From: Terriglobia bacterium
GTDB lineage: Bacteria > Acidobacteriota > Terriglobia > Acidiferrales > UBA7541
Reading direction: 5' to 3'
Length of the DNA: 37,662 nt
NCBI GenBank assembly: GCA_023512135.1
Contig: JAIMAG010000021.1
Span: forward strand, 1-37,662
Under the pieces are notes generated by a model, which worked only from the letters and a program-made list of their open reading frames with translations, had not been told where the DNA came from and did no database searches. The stretch's first letter is position 1, and each line of letters opens with the position of its first letter. Position numbers and translations under genes: made by a program. This document shows positions 7,526-18,168 of this stretch, one piece after another.

Positions 7526-9292
7526 TCAGCGAGCGGTTTCGATGAAAACCTGGTTGGCTAGACCCAGATCGCGGGCTGCTGGCGTCAGGATGGTTTTCGG
7601 CCCGATGCAGATTTTCTGCTGCCGGAGCAGGGCGGCGCGGACATCGGCTTCGCTGACGAAGTCGGCGATTTCCGCAGCGGGCTGCGGTGGAACCGACGTG
7701 ACCGAAGCCGGCGGCGGAGCGGGAGCAGCGGCGCCTCGGCGAATGCCGCGTTCGGCAAAGACGCGTTCGACCAGGCGGGCAATCAGCTCCCGCGAGACCG
7801 GCTCCGCAACCGCTGCGGGTACGGGTTGGGCAGTTGGAGGCGGAGCGGGCGGCGTGGCTGCGGCGTGGGCAGCGGCTGCACCGGGATGAGCCACCAAACG
7901 AAACTCCGCCGGCACGGTGCGGTGTTCCACCGGCCGTGACTCCCAGGCAATTCGCTGGATATTCATCAAGTGTTGCGGGCCGATGTTGTCGGAGGTGATG
8001 TTGCCGCCGAGTGCGCCACAGCCGAGGGTCATGGCCGGAAACAGGTTCGTCGAATAGCCGATCGAGCCGTGCACCGCCGAGGTGTTCACGCAGACACGAA
8101 AGGCCGGCACCGCCTGACCGAACTGACGCACCACGGCCTCGTCTTTCGAGTGGATGGCGATGGTGTGGCCCATGCCGCCGTGCTGAAGAATCCGCGTGCA
8201 AAGCTCGATGGCAGCCCCCAGGCCGGGCACGGAATAAAAGGCCAGCACCGGCGACAATTTCTCCAGCGAAAGCGGATGTTCGCGACCCACTTGCTCGGGA
8301 CTGAGCAGAGCGATCAGCACGCGGGTGCCGGAGGGCACGCGCAGTCCGGCCAGTTCGGCAATGTGGGTGGCGGGTCGGCCGACAATCTTCGGGTTCGGTG
8401 TGTAGGCCGGTCGCTGAATGACCAGCTCGCCGACGCGCTGGGCTTCTTCCGGCGAGAGGAAGTAAGCGCCCTGGCGACGACATTCGGCCAGGGCCTGCTC
8501 GCGGATAACGTCTTCGACCACGATGGACTGCTCGGCCGAGCAAATCGTGCCGTAGTCGAAGGTTTTGCCCGCGAAGATATCGGCGATCGCTTTGGGGAGA
8601 TCGGCGGTGCGTTCGATGAACGCCGGCACGTTGCCCGGGCCGACGCCGTAGGCCGGCTTGCCCGAGCTATAGGCAGCGCGCACCAACCCGGCGCCGCCGG
8701 TGGCCAAGATGACCCCGACGTCGCGGTGACGCATCAGCTCCTGCGTGGCGGCCATGGTGGGATGCTCGAGACAGGCAATCAGGCCCTCGGGCGCACCGAC
8801 CCGCGCGGCCGCTTCCGCCATGATGCGCACCGCCTCGCCGATGCAGCGCACGGCAGCCGGGTGCGGACTGTGGACAATAGCGTTGCGCGCCTTTACAGCA
8901 ATCAGCGTTTTATAGATTGCGGTGGAGGTGGGATTCGTCGAAGGGATAATCGCCGCGACCACGCCGACCGGAACCGCCACTTCCAGGATGCGCTTCTCAC
9001 GATCTTCCCGCAGGATGCCGACCGTGCGCAGCGGACGAATGGCCTGGTGGACTTCGAGCGACGCCAGACGGTTTTTGATGATTTTGTCGGGGACGTTGCC
9101 GAAACCGGTTTCTTCGACGGCGAGCCGGGCCAGCGGTTCGGCGGCGGTCGCGGCGGCTTCGGCACAGGCGCGCACGACGGCGTCCACCTGTTCCTGGGTA
9201 AAAGCAGCGAAGCGGCGCTGCGCCGCGGCGGCGCGAGCCACCAGTTCGCGCGTCTGCTCGATGGAGCGCTGCTCGCGGTCGCTCACGCTCAA
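7526..9292 (-). CDS. CoA-acylating aldehyde dehydrogenase with BMC-targeting C-terminal tail (EutE/PduP type)
   Basis: A 588-residue protein. Residues 1-460 form an aldehyde dehydrogenase of the acylating EutE/PduP class, which converts an aldehyde plus CoA and NAD+ to acyl-CoA. The catalytic cysteine is C251 in [12 protein letters not shown], and the segment [15 protein letters not shown] at 108-122 is typical of the class. Unlike free enzymes it has about 120 extra residues: an Ala/Pro linker (466-497), an amphipathic helix ([16 protein letters not shown], 501-516) like BMC encapsulation peptides, a second linker (520-540) and a terminal module (544-588) containing [10 protein letters not shown]. 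That module resembles the N-terminal part of EutT-like BMC proteins. The gene lies 39 bases after the shell gene and 56 bases before the LptC-like gene. The substrate is inferred to be a short aldehyde, perhaps acetaldehyde. Confidence 0.9.
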
Positions 9293-9331: not shown

Positions 9332-9634
9332 CTATTTTTTCGCACCGGCTGGAGCCTGGCCGCCACCGGGAAGGATTTTTTCGACCATCTCGTGCGGGCG
9401 CGGAATGACGTGCACGGCCACCAGTTCACCGACGCGCCGCGCGGCGGCGGCACCGGCATCGGTGGCCGCTTTGACGGCGCCGACGTCACCGCGCACCATC
9501 ACGGTGACGTAGCCCGCCCCGATGTATTCCTTGCCGATCAGAACGACGTTGGCGGCCTTGACCATAGCATCGGACGCCTCGATGGCCCCGACCAGGCCGC
9601 GCGTCTCGATCATTCCCAGTGCTTCGTTGGCCAT
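9332..9634 (-). CDS. Bacterial microcompartment hexameric shell protein (BMC-H)
   Basis: A 100-residue single-domain BMC protein of the PduA/EutM/CsoS1 class. It opens [20 protein letters not shown], the standard BMC beginning, and carries [19 protein letters not shown] at about 43-61. Such proteins form flat hexamers that tile a protein shell around enzymes. The pore loop at residues 37-41 reads YIGAG, where PduA has KIGSG at the same positions. The start at 9634 is fixed by GAGGAAGGA directly ahead of the ATG; a longer in-frame reading to 9745 lacks BMC character. It is the first gene of the minus-strand run and lies 39 bases before the aldehyde dehydrogenase. No BMC-P pentamer, BMC-T trimer or signature enzyme is in the window. 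Confidence 0.95.
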
Positions 9635-12912: not shown

Positions 12913-14337
12913 TCAGTGTGCCGACCGGGAAGCGGCCACGCGCGCAGCCAGTTGCCGCGCGCGGGCGAGGACCTGCGGCTCATCGAGCGTGAGCACACGG
13001 CCCTGATGGACCACCTGTCGGCCGCCGACCCACACCGCTTCCACATCACTGGCTTTCAGCGCATAGACGATCTGCGAATAGACGTCGAACGCCGGCACGG
13101 CATGAGGCCGGTCGGTGCGGAGCAGGATCAGATCGGCCTGCTTGCCCGCTTCGAGCGAGCCGATCTCCGCTTCCCAGTGCAGCGCGCGGGCACCCCCGAG
13201 GGTAGCCAGTTCGAGAGCCTGCCGCGCGGTGAGTGCTTGCGGGTCCAGGCGCGTAACCTTCTGGAGTTTGGCGGCCAGGTCCATCTCCTCGAACAGATTC
13301 AGGTCGTTGTTGCTGCCGGCCGGGCCATCGGTGCCCAGGCCCAGGCGCAGGCCAGCCGCGAGCATTTCCACGACCGGCGCGGTGCCACTGGCCAGCTTCA
13401 TGTTGCTTGACGGATTGTGCACGCAGCCCGCGTCGCGCAGCCGGAGCAGGGCGATATCGGCGGCATCCACCCAGACACAATGCGCGGCCAGCAGGTCGGC
13501 GCCGAGCAAACCGAGCCGGTCCAGATAGCCCACCGGAGAAAGGCCGTGTTCGCGCCGTACGGCTTGCTGTTCGTGACGGGTTTCTGCCAGGTGGATCAGA
13601 ATCGGGGCGCGGTAGCGACGCGCGAGCTCAGCAGAGGCCCGCAGGGTTTCAGCGGAGTTGGTGTAGAGGGCATGCGGAGCCACGGCAGCGCGAATGCGCG
13701 GATGGCCCTGCCAGCGCTGGAGAAACGCCTCCGTATAGGCCAGGGCCTCGGCGACGGATTTGTGGTCAGGTGCGGGAAAGCCGATAATCGTCTGCCCGAG
13801 CACGGCGCGCAGGCCGGCCTGCTCGGCGGCCTGTGCCACCTGTTCTTCGAAGTAATACATGTCCACGAACGTGGTGGTGCCGCCGCGAAGCATCTCCAGC
13901 GCGGCCAGCCGGGTACCCCACAGCACGAACTCTTCGTTCACGTGACGGGCTTCGGCAGGAAAGATGTAATTCTCCAGCCAGTCCTGCAGGGCGCGGTCAT
14001 CGGCCAGTCCGCGGAGCAACGTCATCGGGGCGTGGGTGTGGGCGTTGATCAGACCGGGAAGCAACAGGCGGCCGCTGGCGTCCAGCCGCCGCGCCGCCGT
14101 GTAGCGGCGTTCCAGCTCGGCGCGGGGACCGAGCGCCGCGATGCGATCGCCGCGGATGGCGAGCGCGCCGTCGGGGAAAACCTGGTGCTCGGCATCCATG
14201 GTGACGATCGTAGCGCCGACAATCAGCAGGTCGGCACGCTCAGCGGGAACACCCCGGCAACCGGTCCATGCGGCCACAGCCACCAGCAGGGCCACGAGCC
14301 GACCGAGCGAATTCATCTGGAGTGTCGTGTCCATCAC
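12913..14337 (-). CDS. Amidohydrolase of the MTA/SAH-guanine deaminase family with a lipoprotein-like signal
   Basis: A 474-residue metal-dependent hydrolase. Metal ligands are visible as H100-T-H102, H249 (IHLAETRHE, with E252), H286 and D337 in GTDGPAGSNND; this is the pattern of the TrzA/MtaD branch, which deaminates methylthioadenosine, S-adenosylhomocysteine or guanine. Ahead of the hydrolase lies a hydrophobic stretch (about residues 10-25) ending in AWTGC at 23-27, a lipobox-like site with Trp instead of the usual small or aliphatic residue. If real, the enzyme is a periplasm-facing lipoprotein. It is the last gene of the nucleoside salvage operon, and its GTG start overlaps the TGA of cdd. 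A start at the second codon (ATG 14334) or at M8 is also possible; all retain the signal. Substrate is unknown. Confidence 0.8.
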   Translation of the reverse strand: MMDTTLQMNSLGRLVALLVAVAAWTGCRGVPAERADLLIVGATIVTMDAEHQVFPDGALAIRGDRIAALGPRAELERRYTAARRLDASGRLLLPGLINAHTHAPMTLLRGLADDRALQDWLENYIFPAEARHVNEEFVLWGTRLAALEMLRGGTTTFVDMYYFEEQVAQAAEQAGLRAVLGQTIIGFPAPDHKSVAEALAYTEAFLQRWQGHPRIRAAVAPHALYTNSAETLRASAELARRYRAPILIHLAETRHEQQAVRREHGLSPVGYLDRLGLLGADLLAAHCVWVDAADIALLRLRDAGCVHNPSSNMKLASGTAPVVEMLAAGLRLGLGTDGPAGSNNDLNLFEEMDLAAKLQKVTRLDPQALTARQALELATLGGARALHWEAEIGSLEAGKQADLILLRTDRPHAVPAFDVYSQIVYALKASDVEAVWVGGRQVVHQGRVLTLDEPQVLARARQLAARVAASRSAH

Positions 14338-14726
14338 AGGAAAGAAGCGTCGAACGGTTCAGGGAACAGTTCGGCGAGACGAAAGGTTTTGGTATCGCCG
14401 CGCAGATTGGCGGCAATCACTTCGATATCGCCGCAGAACTCCCAGAGGAGCTGGCGACAGGCCCCGCAGGGCGGTGTGAGGCGTTCGGTATCCGCGACGA
14501 CGGCGATGGCTTCAAAGCCGCGTTCGCCTTCGGAGAGGGCTTTGAGCAGGGCAACGCGCTCGGCACACACGGTCAGCCCGTAGCTGGCGTTTTCCACGTT
14601 GCAACCGGTGATGACGCGTCCGGAGCGGGCGCGCAGCGCGGCCCCGACACGAAAGTTCGAGTACGGCGCATGAGCGTTTTCGCGCGCGGCGGAAGCAGCG
14701 GCAATCAGTTTTTCGGCAGCGGTCAT
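14334..14726 (-). CDS. cdd: Cytidine deaminase
   Basis: A 130-residue protein, the size of the tetrameric small cytidine deaminases. Zinc ligands are C54 with the catalytic E56 (CAER) and C87/C90 (PCGACRQ); the substrate-contact region FRVGAALRARSG (25-36) and NVENASYGLT are also standard. It converts cytidine and deoxycytidine to uridine and deoxyuridine in the cytosol, feeding the pyrimidine-nucleoside phosphorylase encoded upstream in the same operon. It overlaps punA by four bases (ATGA), a sign of coupled translation. Confidence 0.95.
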   Translation of the reverse strand: MTAAEKLIAAASAARENAHAPYSNFRVGAALRARSGRVITGCNVENASYGLTVCAERVALLKALSEGERGFEAIAVVADTERLTPPCGACRQLLWEFCGDIEVIAANLRGDTKTFRLAELFPEPFDASFL

Positions 14727-15577
14727 GACAGGTCCCGGGCTATGCGGGGAATGACGGCACGCAGCAGAGCTGCAAAGGCATCGCGAACGCGCTCGCCGGT
14801 GGCCAGGACTTCGTCGTGGCTGATAGGCTGGTCGAGAATACCGGCGGCCATGTTCGTGACGCAGGAGATGGCCAGCACGCGCAGGCCCATGTGGCGTGCG
14901 GCAATCACCTCTGGCACGGTGGACATGCCGACCAGGTCCGCACCGATGCGTTCGAGAAAGCGAATCTCAGCGGGGGTTTCGTAGCTGGGCCCGGGCAGGG
15001 CGGCATAGACCCCTTCCTCAACAGACAGACCCAAGCGACGGGCTTCGGCCAGCGCCAGCTCGGCATATGGTTTCCAGTAGGCCTGCGTCATGTCCAGGAA
15101 CCGGGGGCCGAAGCGTTCGTCGTTGGGACCAAGCAGAGGGTTCGTGCCCTGCAGGTTGATGTGATCGCGGAGCACGACCAGACAGCCCTGACGATAGCGG
15201 CGGTTGATGCCGCCAGCGGCGTTGGTCAAAATCACAGCGCGGATCCCTAGCCGGCCGAGTACACGAATCGGGAAAACGACCTGTTGCATCGAGTAGCCTT
15301 CATAGTAGTGCACGCGGCCTTGCAGGGCTGCGACCGGGACTCCTTCGGTCAGGCCAATGACGAGCCGGCCGGCGTGCCCGACGGCCGTCGAAACGGGAAA
15401 GCCCGGAATCTTCTGATACGGGATGCGCGTGGCCCGCTCGAAGTCGTCGGCAAAAGCACCCAGCCCGGAACCAAGCACCAGGCCAATCTTCGGGCGCAGC
15501 CGGGTTTTCGCACGGAGAAATCGGGCCGCACGTTCCACGCGCGTGAATTCAGCCGTTGTTTTTGCCGACGATTTCAT
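14723..15577 (-). CDS. punA: Purine nucleoside phosphorylase (trimeric PunA type)
   Basis: A 284-residue enzyme of the trimeric class that splits inosine, guanosine and their deoxy forms with phosphate to free base and (deoxy)ribose-1-phosphate. Motifs seen are the phosphate-binding VLGSGLGAF (34-42), GHAGRLVIG (67-75), GRVHYYEGY (87-95), LTNAAGGIN, and VGMSTVPEVIAA near the base site. The ATG at 15577 lies 14 bases after the nupC stop; a longer open frame upstream only shadows nupC. The TGA overlaps the start of cdd. The hexameric DeoD class lacks these motifs, so it is excluded. Confidence 0.93.
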   Translation of the reverse strand: MKSSAKTTAEFTRVERAARFLRAKTRLRPKIGLVLGSGLGAFADDFERATRIPYQKIPGFPVSTAVGHAGRLVIGLTEGVPVAALQGRVHYYEGYSMQQVVFPIRVLGRLGIRAVILTNAAGGINRRYRQGCLVVLRDHINLQGTNPLLGPNDERFGPRFLDMTQAYWKPYAELALAEARRLGLSVEEGVYAALPGPSYETPAEIRFLERIGADLVGMSTVPEVIAARHMGLRVLAISCVTNMAAGILDQPISHDEVLATGERVRDAFAALLRAVIPRIARDLS

Positions 15578-15591
15578 CCTCGCGACCGGAC

Positions 15592-16827
15592 TTACAACAG
15601 CATACCGGCAATGGCCGCAGACATGAAGTTGGCCATCGTGCCCGCGAGCATGGCGCGGAAGCCGAGCCGGGCCAGGTCGTCCCGCCGCTCGGGAGCCAGC
15701 GCACCGATCCCGCCGATCTGGATACCGATCGAACCGATATTCGCAAAGCCGCACAGCGCGAAGGTGGCGATGGCCAGCGACTTCGGGTCCAACGCCTCGC
15801 GCGCCAGAACCAATTGTTCGTAGGCCACCACCTCGTTGGTGACCATGCGCAGGCCGAGAAGACTGCCCACCCGGGCGGCATCGTGCCAGGGCACACCCAG
15901 CAGCCAGGCGACGGGACAGAACAACCATCCGAGAATCTGCTCGAGGCTCTGCGGAAACCAGCCGACACCGCGTGCAGCCAGAAACTCGTGGAGACCACCA
16001 AGAATCAGATTGATCAGCGCCAGCAACGCCAGGAAAGCAATCAGCATGGCTCCCACGTTCACGGCCAGGCGCAAACCGTCGGTGGTGCCCCGCGCGGCGG
16101 CGCCGAGCACGTTCGGGTCCTGCCGCTCGACCACCATGCGCACCTGGCCGGCGGTCAGGGGCTGTTCGGTTTCGGGCACCATGATCTTCGCCAGCACGAC
16201 CGCAGCCGGAGCCGCCATCGCCACGGCCATGAGCAGAAAATCCGACCGGGCACCGACACCGATATAGGCACCGAGAATGGCCCCGGAGACGGTGGTCATT
16301 CCCGCCGTCATCACCAGCATCAGCTCCGACTGGGTCAGCTTCGAAAGATACGGTCGGATGGTCAGGGGCGATTCGGTCTGGCCCATGAAAATATTTGCCG
16401 CGGTGTTCAGCGATTCGGCGCCGCTGGTGCCCATCAGTCGCGTCATCACAATCGCCAGGCCGCGGACAATCGCCTGCATCACGCCGTAGTAGTACAGGAT
16501 GGCAAATAACGCGGAGATGAAAATGATCGTCGGCAGCACCTGGAAGGCGAAATAGAAAATTCCACCGGCCGTGGCCTTTGAACCCAGCGGGCCGAACAGA
16601 AAGGTCGAACCGGCTTCGGACACTCGCAGCACACCTTCCACTTTCTGAGCCAGCCAGGCGATGGCCTCCCTGCCCGCCTGTGTTTTCAGGACCAGGACGG
16701 CGAACAGAATCTGGAACGCCAGGCCCCAACCGACGGTCTTGAGACGGATTGCGCGCCGGTTGGAGGAAAGCAACCAGGCAAGTAGCAACAGCACGATGAC
16801 GCCGAGCAGGCCGGTGAAGCGTCCCAT
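15592..16827 (-). CDS. nupC: Concentrative nucleoside transporter (CNT/NupC family)
   Basis: A 411-residue, very hydrophobic protein of CNT length. Family phrases include GQTESPLTIRPYL (near residue 150) and the late segment ANIGSIGIQIGGIGALAPERR (near 365). CNT carriers take up nucleosides with sodium or protons. It has a strong ribosome binding site (GGGAGGGAAGGA directly ahead of the ATG) and lies 24 bases after the pyrimidine-nucleoside phosphorylase stop. Its place between two nucleoside phosphorylases makes nucleoside import the natural role. Which nucleosides it takes cannot be read from the sequence. Confidence 0.92.
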   Translation of the reverse strand: MGRFTGLLGVIVLLLLAWLLSSNRRAIRLKTVGWGLAFQILFAVLVLKTQAGREAIAWLAQKVEGVLRVSEAGSTFLFGPLGSKATAGGIFYFAFQVLPTIIFISALFAILYYYGVMQAIVRGLAIVMTRLMGTSGAESLNTAANIFMGQTESPLTIRPYLSKLTQSELMLVMTAGMTTVSGAILGAYIGVGARSDFLLMAVAMAAPAAVVLAKIMVPETEQPLTAGQVRMVVERQDPNVLGAAARGTTDGLRLAVNVGAMLIAFLALLALINLILGGLHEFLAARGVGWFPQSLEQILGWLFCPVAWLLGVPWHDAARVGSLLGLRMVTNEVVAYEQLVLAREALDPKSLAIATFALCGFANIGSIGIQIGGIGALAPERRDDLARLGFRAMLAGTMANFMSAAIAGMLL

Positions 16828-16851
16828 TCCTTCCCTCCCCCGAGCATGACC

Positions 16852-18168
16852 TCAGGTACCCGCGGCGCCGATCACATCAAGAATCAGCGGGCGGGGCGGT
16901 GGTGGCGCAGGCGCGATGGACCAAGCCGCGCGCAGCCGTTCGAGTGCGGCATCGCGCCGGGCGCGGGCATTATAGTGCAAAGTGCACAGCGGTTCGCCGG
17001 CTTGCACCAGTGCGCCGATTTTTTTGTGGATCGTCAGGCCAACAGCAGGGTCAACGGAATCTTCCTTGCGTTCGCGACCACCGCCGAGCAGCACACAGGC
17101 GCGGCCGATGGCTTCGGTGTCCATGGCCGAGACGAAACCGCTGGTCGGGCTGGGCAGCACGTAGCGGTGCCGGGCGCGCGGCAGGCGTGCGGGATCGTCG
17201 ATGGCGCGCACATCTCCCTCCTGCAGGCGAACGATTTCGCGGAAGCGTTCCAGGGCGCGTCCGCTGGCAAGCAGTTCGCGGGCCAACTGGCGGGCGCGTT
17301 CGACCGTCGCGGCGCGTCCGCCGAGGTGCAGCAGGTAGGCGGCCAGCTCGACCGAAAGCGTCACCAAATCGTCGGGGCCGCTGCCACGAAGCACCTCCAG
17401 CGCTTCGGCCACTTCGAGTGCGTTGCCGACGGCGCGGCCGAGCGGCTGGTCCATGTCCGTCAGCAAGGCGACCGCGCGGGTGCCCATCGCCGCGGCAGTT
17501 TCCACCAGCAGCTCGGCCAGCGCTGCGGCTTCGGCCGGCTGCTTCAGGAAGGCGCCGGAGCCGACTTTGACGTCGAGCACCAGGGCATCGAGGTCTTCGG
17601 CCAGTTTTTTGCTCATGATCGAGGCACAGATCAGCGCCGGACTTTCTACCGTGGCTGTGGCATCGCGCAGGGCGTAGAGTTTGCGGTCGGCCGGGGCGAT
17701 CTGCGCGGTCTGCCCAATCAGGGCACAGCCGGCGCGGGCGAGCACGGAGCGGAAACGCTGCAGGGAAAGGTGCACGTTGAAGCCGGGGATGGCCTCGAGC
17801 TTGTCCAGCGTGCCGCCGGTATGGCCCAGGCCGCGACCGCTGATCATCGGCACATAAAGGCCGGCCGCAGCCACCAGGGGAGCAATCACCAGTGAAGTTT
17901 TGTCGCCAACGCCGCCGGTGGAATGCTTATCCACCTTCGGCGCAGGCAGACGGCTGAGGTCGAGCACGGCACCGGAGCGCAGCATCGCCTCGGTGAGCGC
18001 GGCCGTTTCCGTGCGAGACATCCCGCGCAGCACGACGGCCATCAGCCAGGCGGCCATCTGGTAGTCGGGGATGGCACCACGCGTGTAGCCGCGAACGAGG
18101 AACTCGATCTCCTCGCGCGAGTGCTGGCCCCCATCGCGTTTTTTGCGGATCAGGTCGAGGACGTGCAT
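16852..18168 (-). CDS. pdp: Pyrimidine-nucleoside / thymidine phosphorylase
   Basis: A 438-residue enzyme matching the length of Pdp/DeoA. The phosphate-binding segment DKHSTGGVGDK is at 80-90 and SGRGLGHTGGTLDKLE at about 109-124. The C-terminal domain (TSGFVSAMDTEAIGRACVLLGGGR) is typical of the family. It phosphorolyses thymidine, deoxyuridine or uridine to the base and (deoxy)ribose-1-phosphate. The length and motifs do not decide between Pdp (broad) and DeoA (thymidine-specific). The ATG at 18168 overlaps the end of the metallophosphoesterase gene by 19 bases; a longer open frame is only its shadow. It is the first plain nucleoside gene of the operon. Confidence 0.9.
   Translation of the reverse strand: MHVLDLIRKKRDGGQHSREEIEFLVRGYTRGAIPDYQMAAWLMAVVLRGMSRTETAALTEAMLRSGAVLDLSRLPAPKVDKHSTGGVGDKTSLVIAPLVAAAGLYVPMISGRGLGHTGGTLDKLEAIPGFNVHLSLQRFRSVLARAGCALIGQTAQIAPADRKLYALRDATATVESPALICASIMSKKLAEDLDALVLDVKVGSGAFLKQPAEAAALAELLVETAAAMGTRAVALLTDMDQPLGRAVGNALEVAEALEVLRGSGPDDLVTLSVELAAYLLHLGGRAATVERARQLARELLASGRALERFREIVRLQEGDVRAIDDPARLPRARHRYVLPSPTSGFVSAMDTEAIGRACVLLGGGRERKEDSVDPAVGLTIHKKIGALVQAGEPLCTLHYNARARRDAALERLRAAWSIAPAPPPPRPLILDVIGAAGT

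Follow-up and report, generated by a model that had tools for sequence, protein, structure and literature searches.

A EutQ-related terminal domain, probably for shell docking, on the aldehyde dehydrogenase of an Acidobacteria-specific microcompartment

The window analysed here, a stretch of 37,662 nucleotides that forms contig 51 of a 2.83-Mb Terriglobia genome (GenBank assembly GCA_023512135.1, JAIMAG010000021.1), encodes an aldehyde dehydrogenase (AldDh) with a composite C-terminal tail (Table 1). The catalytic part of AldDh spans residues 5 to 456 and scores 612.8 bits against TIGR02518, just below the NCBIfam cut-off of 620.1; its closest PDB relatives are 5j78 and 3k9d, and Cys251, which sits in GTICSAEQS, is presumably the catalytic residue. 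An EutM-like BMC-H shell protein is encoded upstream on the same strand, its gene lying 39 bases from the earliest possible AldDh start. Contig 44 of the same genome holds one further BMC-H gene and three BMC-P genes; there, a class II aldolase gene, the product of which has a C-terminus resembling an encapsulation peptide by eye, precedes the BMC-H gene and two of the BMC-P genes. An Acidobacteria-only type, ACI, with AldDh encoded on a satellite locus, is described in the text of Sutter 2021 (PMC8217296). The layout of the window genome matches this description, and the window protein is the AldDh of the Acidobacteria-specific ACI microcompartment; a place close to MIC3 in the AldDh tree and a hydroxyacid dehydrogenase gene in the locus would also be expected of this type.

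Table 1. Features of the AldDh gene, its neighbourhood in the window and the shell genes on contig 44 (C44)
Feature	Position	Strand	Evidence
AldDh, acetylating acetaldehyde dehydrogenase type, 588 aa	7526..9292	-	ORF; TIGR02518 E 4.8e-184
Fast-evolving linker 1 (residues 457-499), rich in Ala and Pro	7796..7924	-	dN/dS 0.174 vs G001
Encapsulation-peptide-like helix, residues 500-518	7739..7795	-	Model helix 501-515; motif; dN/dS 0.115 (just 9 changes vs G001)
Linker 2, residues 519-543	7664..7738	-	dN/dS 0.262; 21/25 codons aligned with G001
Terminal module, residues 544-588, EutQ-H1/H2-type domain	7529..7663	-	A1 alignment; NCBIfam; E. coli and Bacillota EutQ matches; model
BMC-H shell protein, EutM-like	9332..9634	-	PF00936 E 4.6e-28; PRK15474 EutM E 8.1e-38
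Cytidine deaminase (putative link)	14334..14726	-	TIGR01354 E 9.5e-43, above cut-off
Purine-nucleoside phosphorylase (putative link)	14723..15577	-	NF006054 E 2.8e-112
NupC-type nucleoside transporter (putative link)	15592..16827	-	TIGR00804 E 5.6e-131, 437.3 bits vs cut-off 442
Thymidine phosphorylase, probable supplier of deoxyribose phosphate (putative link)	16852..18168	-	NF004490 E 5.1e-171
Class II aldolase, then BMC-H and two BMC-P	C44:163996-165872		Family scans
Additional BMC-P	C44:300255		Genome search

The stretch 7526-7897 comprises the last 123 codons of AldDh (residues 466 to 588) and the stop codon. A sequence-only reading had divided this tail into linker, amphipathic helix, second linker and a 45-residue terminal module. 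The coordinates, the two linkers, the helix and the module all stood up to structure prediction, substitution rates and the survey of relatives. The word amphipathic found no backing in the one measure applied: the hydrophobic moment of residues 501 to 516 does not exceed that of shuffles of the same residues (P = 0.24). A model of residues 465 to 588, built from a 24-row alignment, has a helix at 501-515 and a separate, well-ordered element at 543-585, with block-mean pLDDT of 95 to 97 over 545-584 and of 77 for the final four residues. The ten-residue stretch that the sequence-only reading had singled out ([10 protein letters not shown]) falls within the latter element. By model and motif, residues 501 to 515 fit what is expected of an encapsulation peptide, a conserved helix of 15 to 20 residues placed on a linker at a cargo terminus. 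A loose helix motif is present in 21 of 25 tails, the pattern having been drafted post hoc from the tails themselves and carrying no chance rate; for L033, one of the four motif-negative tails, just 22 residues were tested, as its ORF lacks the N-terminus and its tail was cut by position. In some relatives two helices are apparent by eye ahead of the module, and tandem peptides may exist in the family.

The terminal module is a near-constant feature of these enzymes. A whole-protein search of 61 genomes, the window's own included, gave 26 AldDh places in 25 genomes, and the module closes 25 of them, again with the window's among them; the single place without it (L034) is the 35%-identical second dehydrogenase of one genome. 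In the resulting alignment (A1; 24 rows, one of the 25 modules being omitted as identical) nine columns are invariant: F1, V2, E4, A10, I17, T26, P27, A29 and R30. An AldDh that ends in the module occurs in 14 named loci, the titles of which read Acidobacteria, Bryobacterales, Terriglobia or Pyrinomonadaceae. The linkers, in contrast to the module, differ greatly in length and sequence among relatives. Compared with the sister genome G001, dN/dS is 0.040 in the module and 0.047 in the catalytic part, with higher values in the linkers and the helix (Table 1), values for such short stretches resting on few changes. The terminal module is thus under strong constraint, similar to that on the catalytic part.

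The predicted fold of the module is a beta-alpha-beta-alpha-beta mini-domain, with strands at 543-546, 561-569 and 583-585 and helices at 548-556 and 571-580. Its appearance is not that of another encapsulation peptide. Foldseek with the tail model returned no solved structure at E <= 0.001. In a VIA fold comparison of the same model the best Z was 5.0, for a pseudomurein peptide ligase, and IF2/eIF5B followed at Z 3 to 4; kinship with either was rejected, as the Z values are too weak and may reflect merely a common arrangement.

The kinship of the module is best seen through intermediates. The window's tail alone matched nothing significant in Pfam and NCBIfam, where whole sets of modules gave better results, and in a sequence search of the PDB the single module had no match and the module profile none better than E 0.11. 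Run singly against 18,950 NCBIfam models, the 24 ACI modules matched TIGR02536 (17 modules), EutQ (4), PduM (two models, 2 modules each) and a ribonuclease Z model (1), all weakly (best 0.0013; EutQ 0.018); in Pfam, four matched PDU_like (best 0.0029) and there were three single matches to other families. A profile made from ACI modules alone, applied to 17 eut-region proteins from E. coli, placed EutQ first, at residues 8-39 (E 0.0023 for 4,300 targets), and EutT second (E 0.091), ahead of a chance-level match to EutE (90).

For a wider sample the genome_contigs collection, in which each of 84,980 species has one genome, was scanned with a seed of seven rows and a single short peptide pattern. 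Owing to the pattern, the 33 loci found are a sample and not a census. An alignment of 22 rows from these loci and the window (A6) is free of proteins recognised as EutQ, EutT or PduM, and four of its rows come from TIGR02536-type proteins (L084, L085, L099 and L110). When its 22 members were compared with the 18,950 NCBIfam models, 20 matched TIGR02536 (best 7e-14), as is partly expected from those four rows, and 13 matched EutQ (4.3e-5), 12 and 8 the two PduM models (best 6.4e-5) and 2 EutT (0.004); seven other families were matched once each. Of the 30 best Bacillota places fetched with the A6 profile, 15 hold an ORF in which the module is followed by an EutQ-type cupin (best 1e-18). One of these loci, L117, matches the EutQ model NF012001 at 4.7e-48 (163.9 bits, below the cut-off of 193), and residues 2-41 of its protein match the end of TIGR02536. 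Because these intermediates, the A6 members and the Bacillota EutQ-type ORFs, connect the ACI modules to EutQ, we regard homology of the module to the N-terminal H1/H2 region of EutQ as firm overall on sequence grounds, and as weak for the ACI modules taken alone. By the same comparisons the module is also homologous to the N-terminus of EutT and to parts of PduM and TIGR02536 proteins. The by-eye likeness to the start of EutT in the sequence-only reading thus pointed to a true relative and was drawn too narrowly, the EutQ match being the stronger one and TIGR02536 and PduM belonging to the same circle. The cobalamin adenosyltransferase core of EutT itself is absent from the window AldDh, for which Aldedh is the only Pfam family above cut-off and the best 25 of 37 NCBIfam matches are dehydrogenases. 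In the model, the region equivalent to EutQ 9-41 consists of the two helices 548-556 and 571-580 flanked by strands; the account of EutQ in PMC12487888 names helices only in that region.

The module is by no means confined to dehydrogenases. Among 46 Acidobacteriota places (the 30 best and 16 chosen ones), it lies in a dehydrogenase ORF at 41, in RpiB at two, and in a class II aldolase and a 94-aa piece at one each; the remaining match looks like chance. The main carriers in the 33 loci, identified with home-made profiles, are AldDh (14), RpiB (4), class II aldolase (4, one cut by a contig end) and PduL (1); further carriers are TIGR02536-type or similar proteins (6), a Poribacteria protein of 244-248 aa beside PduL (3) and a 249-aa planctomycete protein (1). 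Whole-protein scans found TIGR02536, always below cut-off, in five of those six (L084, L085, L099, L103 and L110; L097 lay outside the scan), and in L085 the match is located behind a match to CoaBC. The one Poribacteria protein scanned gave a weak TIGR02536 match, and the planctomycete protein had no family match in its scan. In Bacillota, PduL carries the module at its C-terminus in L118, L142 and L144, AldDh carries both module and helix at its N-terminus in L151, and a class V aminotransferase beside BMC-H and BMC-P genes carries the module in L152; L154, L156 and L157 encode small module proteins of 88-138 aa. Two candidates were dropped: L071 is a chance match, and L148 resembles an E2 enzyme by eye.

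The sequence-only reading had named, as one outcome that would count against it, homologues that are widespread away from BMC loci; at the genome level this was not what we found. Of 297 Acidobacteriota genomes, among them the window's own, 97 match the ACI module profile and 128 the BMC shell family, and all 97 lie within the 128; the module is found in 0 of the 169 shell-less genomes. Among 299 Bacillota genomes, A6 matches occur in 70, shell genes in 85 and both in 65. The A6 matches in 5 of the 214 shell-less Bacillota genomes are four ACT-domain proteins of 152-156 aa, with a module-like N-terminus ahead of the ACT domain (assigned by Pfam in two of the four, the other two being alike in sequence), and one protein that reads as an E2 acyltransferase by eye. 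Shell genes lie within 26 of the 33 loci from the 84,980-species sample; the genomes of six of the remaining seven have them elsewhere, and in one Poribacteria genome none were found. The module therefore nearly always occurs in genomes with shell genes, and is not strictly microcompartment-bound. Conversely, at the threshold used, it is absent from 31 of the 128 shell-bearing Acidobacteriota and 20 of the 85 shell-bearing Bacillota genomes, and so is not needed in every organelle.

How cargo is attached to the shell of microcompartments is only partly understood. The best guide to what the module might do is EutQ. In the sections cited here, Salmonella EutQ lacking residues 9-41 is reported to stay with cargo and off the shell, so that shell and cargo separate, and EutQ lacking 62-99 to stay with the shell (PMC12487888). 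EutQ without residues 1-100 loses the EutM pull-down, and K53D, D57A, D57K and Q64K in Salmonella EutM each lose EutQ binding (PMC4827028). Encapsulation peptides can drive cargo condensation (PMC12339742), and they have been positioned in a groove between shell tiles that faces the lumen and has helices 1 and 2 of PduA along its sides (PMC11157265). By analogy, helix 501-515 of AldDh would act as an encapsulation peptide of the usual kind and bring the enzyme into the core of cargo, and module 544-588 would be a folded docking domain of the EutQ-H1/H2 type that, on its flexible linker, holds cargo to the shell. The most likely shell partner would be the EutM-like BMC-H protein encoded next door, and AldDh would thus carry in cis the bridge that EutQ supplies in trans in Salmonella. 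We consider it likely that the tail of the ACI AldDh does combine a core-forming encapsulation peptide with an EutQ-like shell-docking domain, and infer from the EutQ system both the binding to BMC-H and the joint action of helix and module. The sequence-only reading had suggested that the module might bind a further protein of shell or core, which agrees with what is published on EutQ 9-41 and the shell.

Several points stand against docking. The window BMC-H protein has R at the position of EutM Q64, and Q64K abolished binding in Salmonella EutM (PMC4827028). In an alignment with E. coli EutM its K53 and D57 are kept, which says little because BMC-H proteins are generally alike. EutQ is assumed to sit on the cytosolic face of EutM in PMC4827028, a face that would not suit cargo inside, whereas the groove of PMC11157265 faces the lumen; which face is used is disputed. 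In addition, the module is found on ACT-domain proteins of four Bacillota genomes in which no shell genes were detected, and the matches of ACI modules alone to EutQ (E 0.0023 and 0.018) are weak. The shell-bearing genomes that lack the module and the hydrophobic moment of the helix count on the same side.

Might the module organise the core instead, its partners being not the shell but further cargo enzymes, such as RpiB, DeoC or the aldolase, or the encapsulation peptides of these? It is fused to several pathway enzymes, and an E2-like enzyme is among the matches of its profile. Moreover, its second helix is similar to the beginning of the E3-binding (peripheral subunit-binding) domain, the part of E2 enzymes by which one enzyme docks to another: E is 0.11 in the PDB sequence match, and 0.0072 and 0.0033 for PF02817 on two carriers, both below cut-off. 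However, this likeness spans one helix only and the predicted module fold has beta strands, and the EutC peptide causes no NMR shifts in EutQ residues 2-62, cargo binding mapping to 63-99 (PMC12487888). A core-organising role is on this evidence unlikely. A permuted E3-binding domain was also considered; only one helix fits, and the likeness is kept as a hint for the core-organising reading. The VIA comparison lists no E3-binding-domain chain, which is no proof of absence.

ACT domains are a ligand-binding family, and the presence of the module on ACT-domain proteins in four genomes without detected shell genes, like its predicted fold as a small beta-alpha-beta-alpha-beta unit, could mean that it regulates the enzyme by sensing or binding a small ligand and that its place in microcompartments is secondary. 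Such a role is hard to square with fusion at either end of unrelated enzymes and to small proteins without a detected enzyme domain, or with the way the module tracks shell genes across two phyla, and we hold it to be quite improbable. It is more improbable still that the tail simply carries two ordinary encapsulation peptides, of which the last is longer: some relatives do seem by eye to have two helices before the module, but the module itself is predicted to be a folded mini-domain with a homologue family of its own and not a helix of 15 to 20 residues. That the module is a structural tail, folding back on the dehydrogenase or aiding its oligomerisation, would agree with the similar constraint on module and catalytic part, but deserves hardly any credence given the variable linkers, with up to 254 residues between residue 440 and the module (L013), and the many other folds that carry it.

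The module also serves as a sequence tag for organelle enzymes whose genes lie far from those of the shell. The A6 profile finds one further module in the window genome, at the N-terminus of an RpiB protein on contig 34 (E 3.0e-6). The RpiB gene is followed by a gene for deoxyribose-phosphate aldolase, DeoC (TIGR00126 E 3.2e-85), with a peptide-like helix by eye at the N-terminus, and no shell gene was found in the 16 kb around the pair. According to PMC8217296, DeoC and RpiB are the signature pair of SPU organelles. The arrangement recurs: across the 297 Acidobacteriota genomes, the RpiB matches listed cover the N-terminal module in at least 57, at least 56 of which have shells and at least 53 of which are among the 97 module genomes. 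DeoC lies within 6 kb of RpiB on the same strand in at least 58 genomes, all with shells, and the N-terminus is covered in at least 47; this count of DeoC proximity is no unbiased test, as RpiB matches without the N-terminus were counted only where DeoC had been noticed nearby. The module profile matches 26 of 30 fetched RpiB ORFs, some weakly (up to 0.007), and the DeoC N-termini from 30 loci mostly form a short peptide-like helix by eye. A module-bearing RpiB beside a peptide-tagged DeoC suggests that the organelle handles deoxyribose phosphate. The tag thus points to the DeoC/RpiB pair, and hence to a candidate substrate of the ACI organelle.

Four nucleoside genes in the window, 4.7-8.5 kb from the BMC-H gene (Table 1), may have a bearing on this. 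Cytidine deaminase, purine-nucleoside phosphorylase and NupC are near AldDh in all 8 same-order genomes whose stretches reach that far (L221 and L230, too short, are excluded), and thymidine phosphorylase is near it in 7 of the 8. None of the four is near AldDh in 6 stretches from outside the order. The nucleoside genes recur only within the order and may therefore be plain synteny. PMC8217296 lists ACI among the types without an obvious aldehyde-generating enzyme, and proposes an aldolase-based role in carbohydrate breakdown. Our hypothesis is that in ACI organelles deoxyribose 5-phosphate is converted into acetaldehyde and acetyl-CoA.

A broader reading can be built on these observations, in which the module is a general plug-in shell anchor that has moved between carriers (EutQ, EutT, PduM, TIGR02536, AldDh at either end, PduL, RpiB, class II aldolase, an aminotransferase and stand-alone adaptors) and, with encapsulation peptides, tags the dispersed proteins of an organelle. 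The ACI organelle would then turn 2-deoxyribose 5-phosphate derived from nucleosides into acetaldehyde, by the tagged DeoC beside the tagged RpiB, and then into acetyl-CoA, by this AldDh. To us this broader reading is evenly balanced between right and wrong.

Movement of the anchor might also bear on Gram-positive Eut organelles. PMC12487888 states that EutQ of Enterococcus faecalis and Listeria monocytogenes is without the first three helices and that assembly may differ. In Lutispora saccharofermentans (L099), a 150-aa ORF has an EutQ-type cupin and no module at E <= 1e-3, but the locus also encodes a TIGR02536-type protein of 232 aa, and this one has the module; other Bacillota EutQ-type proteins, those at the 15 of 30 best fetched places, keep it. 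Drawing on Lutispora saccharofermentans, we suggest that the Gram-positive Eut anchor may have moved to another protein of the locus (TIGR02536 or EutT) rather than vanished. The EutQ domain and its role are already known from published work. What is new here, within the literature searched, is the identity of the module as a mobile domain on the ACI AldDh and many other carriers: a search of titles, beginnings of abstracts and selected sections, with supplements and most subscription papers outside its scope, found no description of it as a shared or mobile domain.

Set beside known systems, the window AldDh agrees with the ACI AldDh of Sutter 2021 (PMC8217296) in its Acidobacteria host, its satellite locus, the class II aldolase, whose C-terminus by eye resembles a peptide of this kind, and the BMC-P genes elsewhere in the genome; it differs in its second C-terminal domain, which the text of that paper does not describe, the supplementary data lying outside the comparison. 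The genome shares with SPU microcompartments the pairing of DeoC, with its peptide-like N-terminus, and a module-bearing RpiB, but is of the ACI kind and has its pair away from shell genes. Residues 501-515 look like the conventional encapsulation peptides of PduP, PduL and EutC, whereas residues 544-588 are longer, are predicted to be folded and belong to another family. EutT, at its N-terminus, PduM and TIGR02536 proteins match the same module and differ from AldDh in being without a dehydrogenase domain. Closest of all is the N-terminal region of EutQ (1-99; Salmonella and E. coli), in which a homologous H1/H2 module and a helical region are likewise joined by a flexible linker. In EutQ, however, the module lies at the N-terminus of a cupin protein, which links the shell with other cargo, whereas in the window AldDh the order is reversed, the module being C-terminal, behind the helix, on the cargo enzyme itself.

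Close to the BMC-H/AldDh pair of the window lies a nucleoside operon, which comprises genes for thymidine phosphorylase, NupC, purine-nucleoside phosphorylase (PNP), cytidine deaminase and an amidohydrolase. NupC, PNP and cytidine deaminase are retained close by in all eight of the readable same-order genomes. On contig 34 of the same genome (G000:C34), an RpiB with the EutQ-type module at its N-terminus adjoins a DeoC whose own N-terminus is encapsulation-peptide-like. The RpiB/DeoC pair is likely a satellite of the organelle, and offers a clue to its substrate.

Features of the window and of loci fetched from other contigs (L-numbers)
Locus	Positions	Feature	Length or strand
Window	12913-18168	nucleoside operon	strand of the BMC-H/AldDh pair
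L160	7964-9568	RpiB/DeoC pair
L154	4925-5341	small module protein	138 aa
L156	3948-4277	small module protein	109 aa
L157	9902-10168	small module protein	88 aa
L152	2807-4764	module-bearing class V aminotransferase
L099	5437-6135, 9475-9927	regions of Gram-positive locus
L151	2615-4444	Bacillota AldDh

The module is also found on other proteins. The three small proteins, which consist of the module and helical-looking extra sequence, are candidate stand-alone EutQ-like adaptors. At L152 the module is N-terminal and BMC-H and BMC-P genes adjoin; the locus is possibly an undescribed organelle type. In L099 the module sits on a TIGR02536-type protein, and was not seen in the EutQ-type cupin ORF of that locus. 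Proteins of 152-156 aa at L146, L147, L149 and L150 have a module-like N-terminus followed by an ACT domain; their hosts are Bacillota genomes in which shell genes were not detected.

Among the tails of relatives, those of L011-L017, L021, L091 and L105 seem, by eye, to have two encapsulation-peptide-like helices ahead of the module, perhaps natural tandem peptides. In the Bacillota AldDh of L151, module and helix are both N-terminal, a mirrored version of the ACI layout.
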